A stretch of 64,000 nucleotides of DNA from a virus. Where the stretch lies: the IMG/VR virus record IMGVR_UViG_3300044638_006750, positions 168,684 through 232,683 of that record, one strand, 5' to 3'. The position numbers were made by a program, and so were the translations under genes. Shown piece after piece: positions 22,971 to 55,883 of the stretch (position 1 is its first letter; each line of letters begins with the position of its first letter). The notes under the pieces are model-generated. The model saw nothing but the letters and a program-made list of their open reading frames with translations. It was not told where the DNA came from and did not search any database.

Positions 22971-23876
22971 TCATGGTGTAGGTTGGATGATTCCATACCC
23001 TTCATATTTTCTTATCCCTTTATGCCTAGTATTTTTTAATTGAATAGCTGTTTTTTTGAATAGCTCTATATAGTCTTCTTTAGTTGTCAGTTGATTACCA
23101 TAGTATGATTTAGCTAATGCTGCACACCCAACAGCAAATGGGTTGCTCATGCTCGTACCGCTCATTTTGGCATAAGTATTTCCTGGGTAGCAGCTTAATA
23201 TATCATGTCCTGGGGCAAGAAAATCTAGCTCGTCTCCGCTACAAGTAAAACTAGTTCTTTCAAAATTACTATCTATCGCCCCAATACTTATTGGATAGTC
23301 GTACTTAGCTGGATACAGTATTTCAGAACTCTCACCAGAGTTACCAGCTGCGCAGAATACAACAATATTTTTGCTTTTAGCAAAATCTATAGCTTTTTCT
23401 AGTCTTGGACTAGGAACAGGTGAACCTAGTGACATTGTAATAAAATCTGCCTTATTATCAATAGCCCAATATATACCTTTGATAATATCTTCATTGCTCC
23501 CCATACCACTATCGTTAAGGGCTTTTATTGGCATAATTTTTGCTTTTGGAGCAACACCAACCATGCCTAATCCATTGTCTGAAGCAGCTATAGTTCCTGC
23601 CACATGTGTTCCATGTCCACATTTATCTATGGGGTCTCTTGATGGCTCTACAAAGTTTACTCCTTGTACTAAGTTATGTTTAAGATCATCATGATCTAAA
23701 TCGCATCCAGTATCTATTACAGCAACAACTATACCATCTCCTTTAGAAAATTTCCAATGATTTTTTATTTTGAATGTTTCTATTTCCCATCCATAAAATT
23801 GGCTGTCTTCTGGTGATAAGCCATATACTGGCTCTACTTCATATGGTAATAATGAATAATTATTTTTTCTTTTCAT
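22971..23876 (-). CDS. Intracellular-subtilisin-like serine protease (S8)
   Basis: 301 residues without a signal peptide. The catalytic triad is complete: Asp55 in VIDTGCD, His88 in GHGTHVAG and Ser242 in SGTSMSNP, with the oxyanion Asn179 in AAGNSGE. The N-terminal SLLPY (8-12) matches the LIPY/F motif of the short propeptide of Bacillus intracellular subtilisins, which blocks the active site until cleaved. Its start overlaps the end of the trypsin-like gene by 17 bp, so the two proteases are co-transcribed. It may process phage or host proteins late in infection (inference). Confidence 0.88.
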   Translation of the reverse strand: MKRKNNYSLLPYEVEPVYGLSPEDSQFYGWEIETFKIKNHWKFSKGDGIVVAVIDTGCDLDHDDLKHNLVQGVNFVEPSRDPIDKCGHGTHVAGTIAASDNGLGMVGVAPKAKIMPIKALNDSGMGSNEDIIKGIYWAIDNKADFITMSLGSPVPSPRLEKAIDFAKSKNIVVFCAAGNSGESSEILYPAKYDYPISIGAIDSNFERTSFTCSGDELDFLAPGHDILSCYPGNTYAKMSGTSMSNPFAVGCAALAKSYYGNQLTTKEDYIELFKKTAIQLKNTRHKGIRKYEGYGIIQPTP

Positions 23877-24615
23877 GCTTTATAGTCTCTCTTATCCATT
23901 CTTTATATAAGCTTACTCTTGTGTGACAACTCTCATCATTGTATGTAGAATTAGAAGATCCATCATATCCTATAACTGATGAATTAATTCCAGCAAGCCT
24001 GTTATCTATAAAAAGACCACCCCCGCTGTCTCCACTACAAATTAAAAATTCTAGCTCTGTAGGCTTTTGATGCCTTTTAGATGGTGAACAGATCAGTACA
24101 TGTCTTTCTATTTTATCTATAAAGTTCGATCCTGCTCTTCTTAAGCCATCATGTTTTTTGGTGCCAGAATTAAATGTTCCCGTAAAACCCCAACCAGATA
24201 TAGAACATAATTTACCAATTTCATCATCTTCTTCATAAATAGATGGATAAAAATCTAAATCTATAGGATCTTCTATGTATCCTAAAGCTATATCAGCATA
24301 GCCAAAAACATTTGTATCATAATCTTTGTGCATAATCATATTTTTAATATTATATTTATTTTCGCCTATATTTACTGTCCAACTATGACAATTCTCAACA
24401 ACATGTGCAGCTGTTATAATCCAGTGAGGATCTATTACTACGGCAGATCCACAGGACATACCCTTGCCGTCAAAACAACATAATTTCACTACACTATGAA
24501 ACTTAGCTCCATAATCAATATATTTTTGATCTGAAGTATGAGGATCTATTGTTCCAGCAATAGAAAAAATTGATAAAAAATTCCATATGAATAAAGCATA
24601 AATATAAGATTTCAT
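23860..24615 (-). CDS. Secreted trypsin-like serine protease (S1)
   Basis: The start at 24615 is set by AAGGAG seven bases upstream; from there the protein is 251 residues with a signal peptide (about 1-20, hydrophobic core YALFIWNFLSIFSIA). The S1 triad is intact: His71 in TAAHVV, Asp108 in YADIALG and Ser197 in CSGDSGGG. Extra Cys residues could form disulfides, fitting export. An S1A protease is unusual in a phage. It may act in the periplasm or on the host surface, or be released on lysis; that is inference. Confidence 0.85.
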   Translation of the reverse strand: MKSYIYALFIWNFLSIFSIAGTIDPHTSDQKYIDYGAKFHSVVKLCCFDGKGMSCGSAVVIDPHWIITAAHVVENCHSWTVNIGENKYNIKNMIMHKDYDTNVFGYADIALGYIEDPIDLDFYPSIYEEDDEIGKLCSISGWGFTGTFNSGTKKHDGLRRAGSNFIDKIERHVLICSPSKRHQKPTELEFLICSGDSGGGLFIDNRLAGINSSVIGYDGSSNSTYNDESCHTRVSLYKEWIRETIKHEKKK

Positions 24616-24663
24616 ATACCGCTCCTTTTCACACCACTTTGTATATATTATATACACTATAAG

Positions 24664-25015: not shown

Positions 25016-26017
25016 CTATAATACCTTAGCAGCTATTAAACATCCTTTAGCTACTGCGTGTAATGGATCATTAGCATGTCTTATTTCTTTTATCTCAACA
25101 GGAAATCCATTTTCTTGCATTTTTAATTTAAAATGTTCGATATATCCATCTGCTAACGATGTACCACCAGCAACCACTATGGTTAATGGATTTTTAAATT
25201 TTGGTAGTGATTTATGATTTATTAATGCAGAAGCTAAATTTTTAGTGGTATAGTCTATAAGTCTTTCATAATATGCTGATACAGCAGCCAACACTGGGTT
25301 GTCGCATGTTTCTCCTATTTTAAATCCACCACCTTCTTTTTCAACCTGTACTACACTATCTGGTTCTCCTGTGGCTACAGCACTCATTCTATCAATCCAG
25401 TCGCCGGATTTAGTTGTGGAAAACAAAACTGTTGGTTCGCCATTAAGCATTACACAAACATTAGTCATTCCCGCTCCACAACTAACCCCAATACCTGTAT
25501 AGTCTTCTGATTCTAATTCAGCATAACATAAGGCTTCTGCTTCATTGATAGCTCTAGCATTATAACCACATTCTGCTAAAATAGTTTTAACAACATCTTC
25601 ATGATATCCAACATCAAAATCGTCGTCTTCTTGATCAACTGGTTGTGCTGGGACACAGAATACCAGTTTTTCATTTTCTTCAGATGCTTTACCTGCTACT
25701 TCTTTTAAAATAAAAGCCAAGATTCTTTTTGCGTCTTTTTCTTTAGCCGAAACAACACCTCTATACATAGGTCTTTTAGCGGTATCATTTCTTTCAATAG
25801 CTTTTTCAATAGCATCTTTACCTAATAGAATAAAAGACCCATCTGAGTCTTTAATAAAAACTTTTCCAGTCAATCCTTTTTCTATCATTTTTGTAGCTAC
25901 TGGTGTTGTTGGTTTAATAACATAAAATGCATCTCTAAAATCTTTATATTGCATTTGATTATTATCGTCAGAAGATAATACTATATATGATGTTCCAACA
26001 TCTAAACCTTTAGCCAT
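25016..26017 (-). CDS. Actin/Hsp70-fold ATPase (ParM/MreB-like)
   Basis: 333 residues with all three nucleotide-binding motifs of the actin superfamily: phosphate-1 GLDVGTSYIV near the N-terminus, phosphate-2 GIGVSCGAGMTNVCVM in the middle and the adenosine motif IVVAGGTSLADG near residue 284. The length is typical of ParM, MreB and phage actins. Filament formation is the usual property, for example in DNA positioning or organising replication. A strong Shine-Dalgarno (GAGGT) precedes the ATG. It follows a one-segment membrane protein by 10 bp in the same operon, a possible anchor. Confidence 0.8.
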   Translation of the reverse strand: MAKGLDVGTSYIVLSSDDNNQMQYKDFRDAFYVIKPTTPVATKMIEKGLTGKVFIKDSDGSFILLGKDAIEKAIERNDTAKRPMYRGVVSAKEKDAKRILAFILKEVAGKASEENEKLVFCVPAQPVDQEDDDFDVGYHEDVVKTILAECGYNARAINEAEALCYAELESEDYTGIGVSCGAGMTNVCVMLNGEPTVLFSTTKSGDWIDRMSAVATGEPDSVVQVEKEGGGFKIGETCDNPVLAAVSAYYERLIDYTTKNLASALINHKSLPKFKNPLTIVVAGGTSLADGYIEHFKLKMQENGFPVEIKEIRHANDPLHAVAKGCLIAAKVL

Positions 26018-26027
26018 AATTTTACCT

Positions 26028-26342
26028 CTAACCTTTCATATTTTTTAGTTTATTGATAGAAGAACCAATATTTTCCTGACTATTCTTAATTTCTCCTAAA
26101 CCTTCATATTTTTTTTCTAATTGATCAGTTTTAATATCTACTACAAATTTACTGTTATCAATTGATATTGGTTGTCCTGTTGATGTATTTTTGATCGACG
26201 ACAATACTTTTGCAGTAGGCGTCTCTTGTTTAAATACACCATCAAAAGACAATAATCTCCCTACTAGTAGTCCTAATAGGAAGATTATTATGTATGAAAA
26301 TATAAAAAGAGTTATTATGGCTATAATTATTATGTTATTCAT
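26028..26342 (-). CDS. Small single-pass membrane protein with helical tail
   Basis: 104 residues. Residues about 3-27 are a strong transmembrane segment; the rest is polar, including QLEKKYEGLGEIKNS and a basic helix at the end, suggesting a coiled-coil cytoplasmic tail. It precedes the actin-like gene in the transcript. No family recognised. Confidence 0.6.
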   Translation of the reverse strand: MNNIIIIAIITLFIFSYIIIFLLGLLVGRLLSFDGVFKQETPTAKVLSSIKNTSTGQPISIDNSKFVVDIKTDQLEKKYEGLGEIKNSQENIGSSINKLKNMKG

Positions 26343-26380: not shown

Positions 26381-26408
26381 TCAAGGGGCCGCAAAAATTG
26401 CCTGACTA
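26381..26408 (-). repeat. 28-bp intergenic motif, copy 2
   Basis: Starts at the TAG stop of ruvB and ends in TTGA, mirroring copy 1 at 24664-24691, including the identical ten-base TCAAGGGGCC block on the plus strand. It precedes the membrane protein gene at 26342. Confidence 0.5.
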
Positions 26409-27305
26409 TGACTTATAGTTGCCAATAATACGACCTTTCTGTGTACGATGTACATACCCCATACGAATCAGAAAAGGTTCGATACTATTCTCTATGGTCT
26501 CTACTGCAATACCGGTTAATGAAGATATACTCTTTAGTCCAAGAGGATTAGCTCTATTTTTCTTTAGTAGATCTAGGTACATTCTGTCATATACGTCTAA
26601 ACCCATGCTATCAATTCCTTGATTTAAAAACACTTCATCTACATCGGGCTTAATACTTTTATGAAAGCTTGTATAACTCTTGTACCACATTAAACGAGCA
26701 TTAAGTATTCTAGGAGTACCCTTGCTACGTTTTGCTATCTCTAATAATTCATCATCAGATAATTCAAGTCCAAGCTTAACTGCATTCGATCTTGCTAGTT
26801 TAGCTAATTCATCATCATTATAAAAGGAAAGATGTTCTTTGATTTGAAACCTGTCATAAAATGGTTGACTAAGCCTTCCACCACAAGTTGTTGCTCCAAC
26901 CAAGGTAAAAAGAGGGAGTTCTATTAACTCTGGCTTGTTCTCTACTACGATACTAAGAACAAAATCTTCCATTACAGGATAAAGGAATTCTTCTACAACT
27001 TTTGGAAGTCTATGGATCTCATCAATAAACAAAACCGATCTTGGAGCAATACCCATTAGATACGGAAGTAAATTCTTTATACTTCTAACATTCGCCCCAT
27101 TGACCGTATACAGGTTTTCACCCATTTCTGACGCTATGGCACTAGCCACAGTGGTCTTGCCAAGCCCCGGAGGGCCGTCAATTAAAACATGAGGCATCGT
27201 AGAGCCTGTGCTTTTACAACCCGCCACAACGATGCGTAAACGATTTACAACCTCGTCTTGCCCAATGATATCCTCAAACTTAGAAGGGCGAACAATATTA
27301 GCCAT
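26406..27305 (-). CDS. ruvB: RuvB-like Holliday-junction branch-migration ATPase
   Basis: 299 residues from the ATG at 27305, set by GGAGGT. Walker A GPPGLGKT (44-51), Walker B FIDE (93-96), sensor 1 GATT (137-140), the Arg-finger region YDRF, sensor 2 GTPRI (196-200) and a C-terminal winged helix ending EPFLIRMGYVHRT match RuvB domain by domain. It is about 35 residues shorter than E. coli RuvB (336). RuvB hexamers drive branch migration when loaded by RuvA. The neighbour at 27298 carries a RuvA-domain-III-like C-terminus and the start overlaps it by 8 bp, a natural partner. Confidence 0.9.
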   Translation of the reverse strand: MANIVRPSKFEDIIGQDEVVNRLRIVVAGCKSTGSTMPHVLIDGPPGLGKTTVASAIASEMGENLYTVNGANVRSIKNLLPYLMGIAPRSVLFIDEIHRLPKVVEEFLYPVMEDFVLSIVVENKPELIELPLFTLVGATTCGGRLSQPFYDRFQIKEHLSFYNDDELAKLARSNAVKLGLELSDDELLEIAKRSKGTPRILNARLMWYKSYTSFHKSIKPDVDEVFLNQGIDSMGLDVYDRMYLDLLKKNRANPLGLKSISSLTGIAVETIENSIEPFLIRMGYVHRTQKGRIIGNYKS

Positions 27306-27696
27306 TTTTACCTCCAATAGTAACCAAAATATTCTTAATTAGTGACGCCGTATCAGATGTTGGATTGCTTGCATGAGCTTCTGCTACTATAGTTTTAGCT
27401 TCTGAAGCTTTGAATCCATACCCAACTAGAATTTTAACACACTGACCCAGGTCGGCCAATGTCGTTTCTTTTACTACTTTTTGTGTGTTCGTCTTAGCTG
27501 ATTTTTTATCATATAGAATCTCTATATTGCTAATTCTTTTTGGTTTTAGCATAGTTTTACAATCACAAACTATAATAAAACCTTTGGTCTGGGATTCTGC
27601 CAGAGAAAGCCAATGTTCTACAGAACATACTGGACACGTATATTTACAGTGTACGTTTAGCTCAGTCGGTTTCAGGTTTTTGATTTTCTTGTTCAT
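27298..27696 (-). CDS. Zinc-ribbon protein with RuvA domain III-like C-terminus (putative RuvB loader)
   Basis: 132 residues. Cys17, Cys21-x-x-Cys24 and Cys44-x-Cys46 suggest an N-terminal zinc ribbon (about 15-50). A polar linker follows, then residues 82-126 (LGQCVKILVGYGFKASEA, then KTIVAEAH and SLIKNIL) closely follow the three-helix RuvA domain III, which holds RuvB (E. coli ALVALGYKPQEASRMV). The OB and helix-hairpin-helix domains that make RuvA bind four-way junctions are absent. The zinc ribbon may replace them in DNA targeting. The gene overlaps ruvB, so the two are co-translated. Similarity is by eye. Confidence 0.65.
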   Translation of the reverse strand: MNKKIKNLKPTELNVHCKYTCPVCSVEHWLSLAESQTKGFIIVCDCKTMLKPKRISNIEILYDKKSAKTNTQKVVKETTLADLGQCVKILVGYGFKASEAKTIVAEAHASNPTSDTASLIKNILVTIGGKNG

Positions 27697-28099
27697 CGTT
27701 ATCTTTTATCCAAAATACAAAGTCATTAAGATCAGGATCATACGAACTATCTATAATGTCTTTCTTTACCAAAGTGTGTAGTATATTACTTACCATTCTG
27801 CTGTTAAAAGATTCTATCATTTCCATGAACTTTTTGTCATTAATTAAATATCTAACTTTATCAGATGTTTTACTTTTTTGTATCTTAACTAAGGATTTTG
27901 CAATTACTAAACATTCTTGTTGAGTAAGGACTTCATTTAACTCTGATACCTCATCTTCCGATAGGTCAGACATTAACATACTGAGTTCATCACTTGTCTT
28001 TTCAGATGTAGTACTAAAATTATCAAATACTAAAATTCTAGTACTTTCAACTAATTTATCTAAATCTTCAACTATAAACCATTCTGTATTTTTTCCCAT
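27662..28099 (-). CDS. Conserved-looking phage protein (paralogue of 50654-51010)
   Basis: 145 residues, mostly acidic helices, ending in an MVSNILHTLVKKDIIDSSYD segment followed by LNDFVFWIKD. This end resembles LARLASRGYLECAWD and MVFWLSD of the protein at 50654, suggesting a winged-helix-like C-terminal domain shared by paralogues. Overlaps the RuvA-like gene by 35 bp. Function unknown. Confidence 0.55.
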   Translation of the reverse strand: MGKNTEWFIVEDLDKLVESTRILVFDNFSTTSEKTSDELSMLMSDLSEDEVSELNEVLTQQECLVIAKSLVKIQKSKTSDKVRYLINDKKFMEMIESFNSRMVSNILHTLVKKDIIDSSYDPDLNDFVFWIKDNDEQENQKPETD

Positions 28100-46800: not shown

Positions 46801-47009
46801 GTATCGTCTATTCGTTTGCGTTTCTTGAACACAATAGCCAATGACTGCACCAAATCACTTCCTGCCGTTTGAAATATACACGGTAAAATAGCATGTATAA
46901 TTAAACAGAGACCGGCTAGAATACAAACTACACCATGAAAAGTAGCAAATTTAAAATGCTGATAATAAGTCATATTATTTTCTTGTATATGTTTTTTTAT
47001 ACTATTCAT
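46797..47009 (-). CDS. DUF6356-like small membrane protein
   Basis: 70 residues: ENNMTYYQHFKFA, a hydrophobic stretch VVCILAGLCLIIHAILP, then IFQTAGSDLVQSL and a basic end. This matches a small bacterial membrane family (YxQH, IHAxxP, TGSD). It overlaps endonuclease VII by 8 bp. Function unknown. Confidence 0.65.
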   Translation of the reverse strand: MNSIKKHIQENNMTYYQHFKFATFHGVVCILAGLCLIIHAILPCIFQTAGSDLVQSLAIVFKKRKRIDDT

Positions 47010-47349
47010 ATCTTTTGGGTCTCGATAAAAAGTAATTCATAGCGTTAACTACGGATTGAAAGTTGTCTCCGAGCTTGCCTATCCCAGTATTACATGGTTC
47101 ACATAGCCATCCTCTAAAGCTATTATCTTCATGATCGTGGTCTAAGCACCATTTGTATGGTATTTTTCCGCAACACTCACAGACTTCTGGTTTTGGTGGT
47201 GCCTTTTTGTGTAATTTGTTTCTCACCTTCGATTGTTTTTTTACACATTTTCTACATCTGCTATCTAGATTGTCTTTGTACATACTATGTTTGGGAAAAC
47301 TAGCTTTATTTTTTCTTTTACCGCAGTACGAACAAATTTTTCTAGTCAT
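47002..47349 (-). CDS. Recombination endonuclease VII-like resolvase
   Basis: 115 residues. CSYCGKRK and CRKCVKK form the first zinc site, CECCGK the second; CLDHDHEDNSFRGWLCEPCN is the diagnostic endonuclease VII (T4 gp49) core, followed by GIGKLGDN. These enzymes cut Holliday junctions and branched DNA. Together with RuvB in the same genome it suggests junction processing during packaging or recombination. ATGA junction with the DUF1501 gene. Confidence 0.82.
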   Translation of the reverse strand: MTRKICSYCGKRKNKASFPKHSMYKDNLDSRCRKCVKKQSKVRNKLHKKAPPKPEVCECCGKIPYKWCLDHDHEDNSFRGWLCEPCNTGIGKLGDNFQSVVNAMNYFLSRPKRYE

Positions 47350-48593
47350 GAGAATAATTCATGAATCACTTTACCATTATTGGCAATTTTCATGGGTCTA
47401 CCATTTTTGGCAGTGAATATAGTTTCTAATGAAATATCTATAGATTTTAGTACACTAGCCATTAAGTCTTGAGAGGTATATGGTTCAGAAATTACTTCTT
47501 TACCATCTTTACTCGTCTCACCAACAATTACTCCCTTTTTAAAACCAGCCCCTCCAACAACAACACTCCAACTTCTTGCCCAATGATCTCTACCGGCATT
47601 TCCATTAATATTTGGTGTGCGTCCAAATTCTCCCATCCATACTATTGCTGTGCTATCCAACAACCCTCTGTTATTTAAATCTTCTATTAAAGCACTCATA
47701 GCCTTGTCCATTTCGGGAAGTTTTTGATTTTGCAATGTTGGGAATACATCTTGATGGTTATCCCACCCACCAAGATCTACTTCTATAAATGGCGCCCCTA
47801 TTTCTACTAGACGCCTAGCCATCAAACAACCTCTGCCAAACCCTGTATTTCCATATCGTTCCTGAATTTGCTTGGGTTCTTTGGACACTTTAAAAACATC
47901 CATCTGAGAACTACTCATCAACTTTACTGTTTTGGTTAAAAGCTTGGCATGGTCATTGGCATACTCTCCACGATTTTCTTTTATAAATTTGTCTTCTATT
48001 GTTTTGAGCATTTGTAATCTTTGATTAACTCTGTTAGGCTCTATACCCATATCTAAATCACGAACTGTCCCATTAGAATTAACCACAAATGGAGCATAAG
48101 TAGCTCCTAAAAAACCTGGACCTACACTTGGACTCCCGATACTAACGAATGGAGGAATGTCAAGCTCTGGAATACTAGATATTAATTCATGAGATACAAC
48201 AGAACCATAGCTTGGATGTTCTATATTTGGATTAGGAACATAGCCAGTATGTAAATAATAGCGTCCTCTCATATGATCTGCTTCTCTTGTACTCATACTT
48301 CGTACAATATTCATGTGATGCATTTGTTTTGACATAAGAGGTAAATGCTCACAAATTTCAATGCCGTCAGCAGACGTTGAGATGGGTTTAAATGGCCCCC
48401 CAGTTGGACTCCCAGGCTTTAAATCCCATATGTCAATGGTGCTAGGACCGCCGCCCATCCATAGCAGAATGACAGACTTGGTTTTTTTTGTCGTATCAGC
48501 AGTATTAGCTAATATAGAATTAGCAAAATATGTTGAAGAAGATGCCAGACAAGAAGATGCTGCTAAATGTGATAAAAAATGTCTTCTGTTCAT
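47346..48593 (-). CDS. DUF1501 protein with Tat signal
   Basis: 415 residues. The N-terminus NRRHFLSHLAASSCLASSS is a Tat-type signal (R-R-x-F-L) for folded export. The rest follows DUF1501: SVILLWMGGGPSTIDIWDLK, GIEICEHLPLMSKQMH, SMSTREADHMRGRYYLHTGY, PSYGSVVSHEL, GWDNHQ, WMGEFGRTPNINGNAGRDHW and PYTSQDLMASVL. This sulfatase/phosphatase-like family is very abundant in Planctomycetes, often paired with DUF1549/1553. The length matches bacterial versions. It looks acquired from the host. The enzymatic role is not known. Confidence 0.85.
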   Translation of the reverse strand: MNRRHFLSHLAASSCLASSSTYFANSILANTADTTKKTKSVILLWMGGGPSTIDIWDLKPGSPTGGPFKPISTSADGIEICEHLPLMSKQMHHMNIVRSMSTREADHMRGRYYLHTGYVPNPNIEHPSYGSVVSHELISSIPELDIPPFVSIGSPSVGPGFLGATYAPFVVNSNGTVRDLDMGIEPNRVNQRLQMLKTIEDKFIKENRGEYANDHAKLLTKTVKLMSSSQMDVFKVSKEPKQIQERYGNTGFGRGCLMARRLVEIGAPFIEVDLGGWDNHQDVFPTLQNQKLPEMDKAMSALIEDLNNRGLLDSTAIVWMGEFGRTPNINGNAGRDHWARSWSVVVGGAGFKKGVIVGETSKDGKEVISEPYTSQDLMASVLKSIDISLETIFTAKNGRPMKIANNGKVIHELFS

Positions 48594-50653: not shown

Positions 50654-51010
50654 TTAAGAAGGCTTGTTAGGAATACTGGTTTGTGCTTTATCAGATAACC
50701 AAAAAACCATCTCATTGGTCTTTTCGTCCCAGGCACATTCAAGATAACCTCTAGACGCTAACCTAGCCAAACCAACACCATATAACCACTCTCTAATTTC
50801 GTTAAAGATGTTGTCAAAAATCGTTTCTGTAATAATCAGATGATCATCCTCATCTAATCCCAGACTATGTTTTTTGATTAAAGAAATAACTTGGTTGATA
50901 CTAATAAAATTATCCAAATTTTCACTGTAGTTTTCTGCAAAAGATTTTGCAGCACCTTCTCTCATTGCGACGGCATATCCTTGCAAATCTATGATTGAGT
51001 ATTTTTCCAT
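50654..51010 (-). CDS. Hypothetical protein, paralogue of 27662-28099
   Basis: 118 residues; helical, ending LARLASRGYLECAWDEKT then MVFWLSD, similar to the end of the protein at 27662. A winged-helix-like fold is plausible. Function unknown. Confidence 0.55.
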   Translation of the reverse strand: MEKYSIIDLQGYAVAMREGAAKSFAENYSENLDNFISINQVISLIKKHSLGLDEDDHLIITETIFDNIFNEIREWLYGVGLARLASRGYLECAWDEKTNEMVFWLSDKAQTSIPNKPS

Positions 51011-54968: not shown

Positions 54969-55883
54969 TTAAATAAGAGTTGTGTTTAAAATCTTCCTAT
55001 ATTCAGCAATTGCTAAGTCTTTAGCTTTGAGTTCCATATCAATATCAAACTCCAAACCATAATTATCAAACTTTTGTTCTGCATAATCAGCATGGGCGCG
55101 TGGATTATTACCCGGACGACTTTCGCTATAATGAAAAAGAGGTCTGGTTTGCCAAGTATCCCAGCACATATTAATTGCTTCAATTTCTGTTGTGTTGTTT
55201 GGATGGCACTTATGGTGGAGATAGTCAAAACAAATCGGTATACGAGTAATTGGATGAAAAATATCTACAAGTTCACGCACACTCCAACAATTAAGCTTGT
55301 CATCATTTTCTATAGTGAGTCGAGCCTGACAGTTTTCGTCTAATCGTTTAAAGTTTTGAAAAAATCTGTTGGCGATTTCTTTTCTTGTTCCATTGTTATT
55401 ATGAACATGAAGATTCATTGGAGATCTAGTATCTGCCGGAAGTCCAATTCTATCAAAGAAACTGCTGTAGAAGTTGAGTTCTGTAATGGTTTTTTCGACA
55501 ACTTTTTCGGAGAGACTAGCCAAACTGTTAAATTCACTTGGATGAGCAGAAACACGAACCCCAGTAGAGGAAATAGTTTCCGCAATATCATCAAACTCGT
55601 CTTGTATTTCGTCATGATTAGGCAAGTCCTCAAGGTTAACATTCGCCTGATCATAAGTGATCAGAGGGAAAATGTCACTACTGACCCTATAAACATAATC
55701 ATTTTCTGCACAAAACTGAATTGTTTTATTAGTTACAGCAAGATTGTTGAGTATGCGTGAGCCAAGAATCCTAAGTGCTTCTTCTCGCGGCAAAGAACTA
55801 AAACGCTTGTAAGTCATTGTTTGGTGACTAAAACCTTGATCTTTAAGAGTGAGAGAGATACAGCAGAGGCCGAGTTTTATCAT
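54969..55883 (-). CDS. uvsE: UV damage endonuclease (UVDE family)
   Basis: 304 residues with UVDE (TIM-barrel) motifs: MIKLGLCCISL at the start, VYRVSSDIFPL, RVSAHPSEFN, LTIENDDKLNCWSV and ICFDYLHHKCHP, where His, Glu and Asp bind the metals. The enzyme nicks 5' to pyrimidine dimers and abasic sites. Length matches Bacillus UvsE. A plus-strand HNH gene is immediately upstream. Confidence 0.9.
   Translation of the reverse strand: MIKLGLCCISLTLKDQGFSHQTMTYKRFSSLPREEALRILGSRILNNLAVTNKTIQFCAENDYVYRVSSDIFPLITYDQANVNLEDLPNHDEIQDEFDDIAETISSTGVRVSAHPSEFNSLASLSEKVVEKTITELNFYSSFFDRIGLPADTRSPMNLHVHNNNGTRKEIANRFFQNFKRLDENCQARLTIENDDKLNCWSVRELVDIFHPITRIPICFDYLHHKCHPNNTTEIEAINMCWDTWQTRPLFHYSESRPGNNPRAHADYAEQKFDNYGLEFDIDMELKAKDLAIAEYRKILNTTLI

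Follow-up and report, generated by a model that had tools for sequence, protein, structure and literature searches.

Genetic organization of the locus

The DNA analyzed here, referred to as the window, is a 64,000-nucleotide stretch that constitutes the final 64 kb of the 232,683-base record of an uncultured phage (IMG/VR record IMGVR_UViG_3300044638_006750). It includes three minus-strand genes that overlap in series at nucleotides 28099-27662, 27696-27298, and 27305-26406, respectively. The last of these encodes a 299-amino acid RuvB. The gene directly upstream (27298-27696) encodes a 132-amino acid protein for which we use the working name ZR-D3, coined in this analysis, and which was defined by its open reading frame (ORF), the alignment of its family, its RuvA_C and ruvA matches, and its predicted fold. 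In ZR-D3 a zinc ribbon (residues ~16-56, nucleotides 27529-27651) is joined by a variable, poorly ordered linker (residues 57-79, nucleotides 27460-27528) to a three-helix domain resembling domain III of RuvA (residues 80-127, nucleotides 27316-27459). The first gene of the series codes for a predicted winged-helix protein of 145 amino acids and overlaps the ZR-D3 gene by 35 nt; it was overlooked in a preliminary description of this DNA, which did recognize that ruvB overlaps a 132-residue gene. That overlap is real, with the ZR-D3 gene located upstream on the minus strand.

The phage RuvB

The identification of the product of nucleotides 26406-27305 as RuvB, proposed earlier, was confirmed by searches of Pfam, the PDB, and NCBIfam. 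The protein has a full-length RuvB architecture consisting of RuvB_N (E 2.7e-46), AAA_lid_4 (E 4.3e-8), and RuvB_C (E 1.1e-18), it matches solved RuvB structures with an E value of 1e-65, and it passes the NCBIfam equivalog NF000868 (297.3 bits, cut-off 282) while missing the cut-off of TIGR00635 (276.8 versus 299.05). By its sequence it is a bona fide RuvB and a new member of this family. Its start had been placed at the TTG at 27317, which is 12 nt too early. The homologues start at the Met encoded by the ATG at 27305, and the TTG overlaps a Shine-Dalgarno sequence, GGAGG (27311-27315), that precedes this ATG inside the upstream gene. The ATG at 27305 is therefore the start of ruvB, and as a consequence the overlap with the ZR-D3 gene is 8 nt (27298-27305).

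Residue conservation was scored in 52 distinct RuvB homologues. The Walker A motif GPPGLGKT (nucleotides 27153-27176, invariant in 52/52), the Walker B motif DEIH, the arginine finger R174, the sensor-2 region P220-R221, and the C-terminal DNA-binding residues R313 and R318 are all invariant or nearly so, as would be expected of an intact hexameric translocase acting on double-stranded DNA. The presensor-1 β-hairpin that serves for RuvA binding (L135-L152 in E. coli) is retained at nucleotides 26916-26957, and the residue equivalent to I150 is Ile in every homologue.

Other identities were considered for this gene and its genome. A PHROGs search matched the AAA+ gene to clamp loaders of the T4 gp44 type (E 5e-21), an identity that was rejected because of the full RuvB_N/RuvB_C architecture and the score against the NCBIfam RuvB equivalog. 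The assignment of the genome to a T4-like phage was also discarded; solid matches were found only to rIIA, rIIB, ligase, gp41, and gp49, and the RuvB gene matched gp44 with an E value of 2e-5. A defense system was likewise rejected, PADLOC yielding generic AAA matches only.

ZR-D3 combines a zinc ribbon with domain III of RuvA

Homologues of ZR-D3 were gathered from viral contigs and conservation was scored in 47 distinct sequences. The family aligns over its full length, with 29-51% identity to the window protein and four invariant cysteines, and the 132-amino acid gene is therefore real. The invariant residues are P10, Y19, C21, C24, W29, V43, C44, C46, G94, and E99; those of the ribbon, the four cysteines (C21-x2-C24 and C44-x-C46) together with Y19, W29, and V43, are kept in 47/47 sequences. 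Residues 16-56 define a Cys4 zinc ribbon with weak likeness to Zn_ribbon_5 (PF13719) and to the ribbon of 7zok. The linker differs strongly in length among homologues and has the lowest predicted local distance difference test (pLDDT) values of the chain interior, falling below 50 at residues 72-74.

The similarity of the C-terminus to domain III of RuvA, suggested in the preliminary description, was borne out by the family profile and by the predicted fold, which together settle this identity. The sole match of ZR-D3 among 18,950 NCBIfam families was TIGR00084 (ruvA), at positions 145-201 of 202 (E 6e-4). When the ZR-D3 family profile was compared with all PDB sequences the top match was domain III of Thermus RuvA (1ixs, E 0.002), and RuvA accounted for 6 of the 12 matches. 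A profile-profile comparison with five bacterial RuvA proteins aligned the same stretch with a P value of 1.9e-4, versus 0.14 for an unrelated neighbor family used as control. The AlphaFold2 model includes helices at residues 80-92, 97-110, and 116-131, and as far as residue 130 its block pLDDT values are about 77-87. In a Foldseek search of 350,542 PDB chains with this model the top 20 were all RuvA, with probabilities of 0.93-1.00; 1ixs_A superimposed with a root-mean-square deviation of 1.5 and a TM score of 0.71 over the target, and UBA/CUE domains scored far lower. A search of a viral fold library gave no informative match.

With the E. coli RuvA numbering verified on MG1655, residues L90, Y93, G94, and F95 of ZR-D3 correspond to L167, L170, G171, and Y172. 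Position 90 is Leu in 46/47 sequences, position 93 is Tyr in 44/47 and Leu in the rest, G94 is found in all 47, and position 95 is Phe in 44/47 and Tyr in the rest, so that the equivalents of L167 and L170 rank among the most conserved residues of the domain. In E. coli RuvA, either of the substitutions L167A and L170A eliminates the in vivo activity of RuvB and leaves junction binding unaffected (PMC2628435). The RuvA-RuvB interface thus appears preserved on both partners, the conserved residues pointing to a contact with the RuvB hairpin.

The rest of RuvA is a different matter. The earlier proposal that the junction-holding domains are missing and that a zinc ribbon takes their place held up: domain I (RuvA_N, PF01330) was not found in ZR-D3 or in 13 related records, and no helix-hairpin-helix match to domain II was obtained in ZR-D3 or its homologues, the N-terminus being the zinc ribbon instead of the junction core with its acidic pin. 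RuvC (PF02075) was also not found in the 13 related records. As controls for these searches served 14 known genomes, of which 10 gave a RuvA_N match and 8 a RuvC match. Since domains I and II, which define a RuvA, were searched for and not found, ZR-D3 is not a RuvA but a probable RuvA domain III adaptor.

Gene order and distribution

In a sample gathered by RuvB alone the ZR-D3 gene directly precedes ruvB in 69/80 loci, and in a sample gathered by ZR-D3 every ZR-D3 gene is directly followed by ruvB. Taking both samples, the pair is found in 145/156 loci with a spacing of -34 to +10 nt, and there is no ZR-D3 gene without RuvB. The order matches that of bacterial ruvA and ruvB.

Neither the ZR-D3 nor the winged-helix gene was found in any cultured phage of the collection searched, and no RuvA_C was found in Bacillus phage OM634661, which has a PolIII-alpha. 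Among five GenBank records of 'phage' RuvB examined as possible relatives, four have a full RuvA upstream of RuvB, one of them in an ordinary bacterial contig that also carries purL and dgt; these four therefore look like bacterial DNA and were rejected as relatives. In the fifth, no RuvA was confirmed. A cellular reservoir was also rejected, as it came down to one contig of a metagenome-assembled genome, itself bearing the same phage block with rIIA and rIIB.

Endonuclease VII and the gene neighborhood

The endonuclease VII-like gene noted earlier at 47002-47349 (minus strand) was verified (PF02945, E 1e-11; phrog_2633, E 2.7e-22). Its product is a candidate junction resolvase, although the gene is unlinked to the RuvB cluster. 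The phage encodes a second, stronger endonuclease VII outside the window (nucleotides 1075-1332 of the genome), and the enzyme was detected in 10/13 related records. A gene for a DUF1501 protein (E 1.7e-101) at 47349-48593 of the window overlaps the endonuclease VII-like gene.

The winged-helix gene (27662-28099, minus strand) lies upstream in 156/156 RuvB loci, including those devoid of ZR-D3, and is therefore more constant than ZR-D3. The model of its product (pLDDT 82) has a winged-helix layout, with weak Foldseek matches to SarA/MarR folds. Paralogues are located at 50654-51010 of the window and at 219361-219609 of the genome; their counterparts in related records are found no more than a few kb from the endonuclease VII gene.

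These genes form part of a block with the conserved order rIIA-rIIB-...-winged helix-(ZR-D3)-RuvB-membrane protein-actin, and since gene order is kept across this wider block, being adjacent carries limited weight by itself. Downstream of ruvB, in 121 loci with room for them, an actin-like (volactin) gene is found in 90 and a small membrane-protein gene in 103; in the window these are at 25016-26017 (volactin family, E 2e-63) and, preceding it, 26028-26342 (putative). Overlapping genes for a subtilisin-like serine protease, whose best match is mycosin (E 4e-60), and a trypsin-like one adjoin the cluster at 22971-23876 and 23860-24657.

Elsewhere the phage codes for a split PolIII-alpha polymerase, a DnaB helicase, a Toprim-domain primase-like protein, a RecA-like recombinase, and a DNA ligase. 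The two ORFs of the polymerase, with the PHP and NTPase part at 141066-142943 of the genome and the finger and helix-hairpin-helix part at 138573-140189, are about 0.9 kb apart (L089:8069-9943 and L089:5576-7189). A homologue of the UV-damage endonuclease UvdE is found at 54972-55883 of the window (E 1e-42).

Possible role of ZR-D3 and RuvB

Two functions are ascribed to RuvA, namely holding the junction and, by way of domain III, running the RuvB motor. These functions are apparently separated here, the motor-operating part being kept and the junction clamp discarded, and the separation extends across a broad family of large phages that are uncultured. Cryo-electron microscopy of bacterial RuvAB showed that domain III binds helix α3 and the presensor-1 hairpin of RuvB, and that it serves both as a nucleotide-exchange factor and as an activator of the ATPase (PMC9477746). 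Since domain III and its contact residues are kept, ZR-D3 should still operate the motor, and would bind and activate the phage RuvB. A zinc ribbon on a flexible linker would replace the tetrameric four-way-junction clamp formed by RuvA domains I and II and supply another tether, either to DNA directly or to the winged-helix protein, RecA, or the replisome. The motor could then drive branch migration or fork remodeling in RecA-type recombination and replication of the phage, and the junctions would be cut by endonuclease VII rather than RuvC. We lean slightly toward the view that the locus is such a rebuilt phage ruvAB operon, with ZR-D3 as activator and adaptor of RuvB and the zinc ribbon as its new targeting device. 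Because the phage has a PolIII-alpha, DnaB, a primase-like protein, a RecA-like recombinase, and a ligase, the simplest interpretation is a role in recombination and replication in which endonuclease VII acts as the resolvase. The more specific notion that motor activation has been split from junction recognition, so that ZR-D3 delivers RuvB to a target other than that of RuvA (the replisome, the winged-helix protein, or DNA ends) with no Holliday-junction clamp at all, is offered tentatively, as we would sooner expect it to fail than to hold.

Several observations weigh against the rebuilt operon. The RuvA_C match that the preliminary description led one to expect was obtained as the best Pfam match of ZR-D3, although with the single sequence it stays below the cut-off (18 versus 24 bits, E 0.0043). 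In most members the RuvB hairpin is shorter than that of E. coli, the I148 position lying in the gap. Domain III evolves fastest: its mean pairwise identity is 35%, while the zinc ribbon has 48% and RuvB 75%. Finally, ZR-D3 is missing from 11 of the 80 RuvB loci, which represents about four independent losses, and it was not found elsewhere in five long records (113-230 kb) that lack it at ruvB. In a RuvB tree with near-copies removed (59 sequences with ZR-D3, 8 without, four changes) those without it are nested among those with it, which indicates that ZR-D3 is ancestral to most of the family and was repeatedly lost. About four losses with RuvB retained mean that ZR-D3 is dispensable, which speaks against a strictly required loader, and that RuvB is of use in its absence, perhaps in combination with a host RuvA. 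RuvB-bearing phages cleanly devoid of the zinc-ribbon gene include L055, L047, and L008.

These losses keep alive the idea that ZR-D3 is an accessory that only modulates a RuvB acting alone or with a full RuvA of the host. It could, for example, occupy the hairpin and so exclude host RuvA, and with it the host RuvABC resolvasome, from phage DNA, or it could block the host RuvB. RuvB persists with an unchanged hairpin where ZR-D3 was lost, a domain III without its clamp could serve as a competitor, and complementation between RuvA and RuvB across species is known (PMC9477746). Nevertheless, most of the family keeps ZR-D3 in translational coupling with the ruvB of the phage itself, and a pure competitor needs no conserved zinc ribbon with invariant residues, so that we consider a merely modulatory role unlikely, if still deserving of attention. 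It is improbable, in our estimation, that the winged-helix protein, ZR-D3, and RuvB form a remodeler or positioner of DNA or nucleoprotein that does not migrate branches, in which the zinc ribbon would dock proteins in the service of the replisome, of late transcription, or of a segregation of the genome that involves the neighboring actin-like gene. The constancy of the winged-helix gene, the frequent volactin and membrane-protein genes downstream, the PolIII-alpha replisome of the phage, and the failure to detect a clamp-loader delta' in 13 records would agree with such a device. On the other hand, the order of the whole block from rIIA to RuvB is conserved and adjacency says little, the RuvB catalytic and DNA-binding residues that were checked fit ordinary translocation on double-stranded DNA, and the presence of endonuclease VII and RecA in these genomes is in keeping with recombination. 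Domain III belongs to the common UBA-like fold and the single-sequence matches are weak, as would be the case if the C-terminus were a generic UBA-like bundle convergent with domain III and the ruvB neighborhood ordinary phage synteny. This we regard as very improbable, given that profile and fold searches pick RuvA over all other three-helix bundles, that the conserved residues are those that bind RuvB, and that the gene occupies the place of ruvA before ruvB.

Comparison with known systems

A literature search found no described system of this form, in agreement with the preliminary description. Like bacterial RuvAB, the phage system has a RuvB motor, a domain III with the RuvB-binding residues on a flexible linker, and the ruvA-ruvB gene order. 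Unlike it, the phage has a Cys4 zinc ribbon in the place of RuvA domains I and II, no RuvC was detected in the records searched, a winged-helix gene is coupled upstream, and ZR-D3 is dispensable in part of the family. The system therefore poses a testable question, whether domain III and a tether are enough to operate RuvB. Another phage, compared by description only, likewise has a protein annotated with the RuvA C-terminal domain, a PolIII alpha, and DnaB, and its gene list names no RuvB (PMC10454425). The recombination sets of jumbo phages are similar in that a large phage carries a viral Holliday-junction resolvase and a RecA-type recombinase; in the survey of these phages the viral RuvC was uncoupled from any RuvB-like ATPase (PMC7824862). 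Whereas those sets include RuvC or endonuclease VII without RuvB (PMC7824862), the phage described here has a true RuvB, which is added to the phage repertoire.
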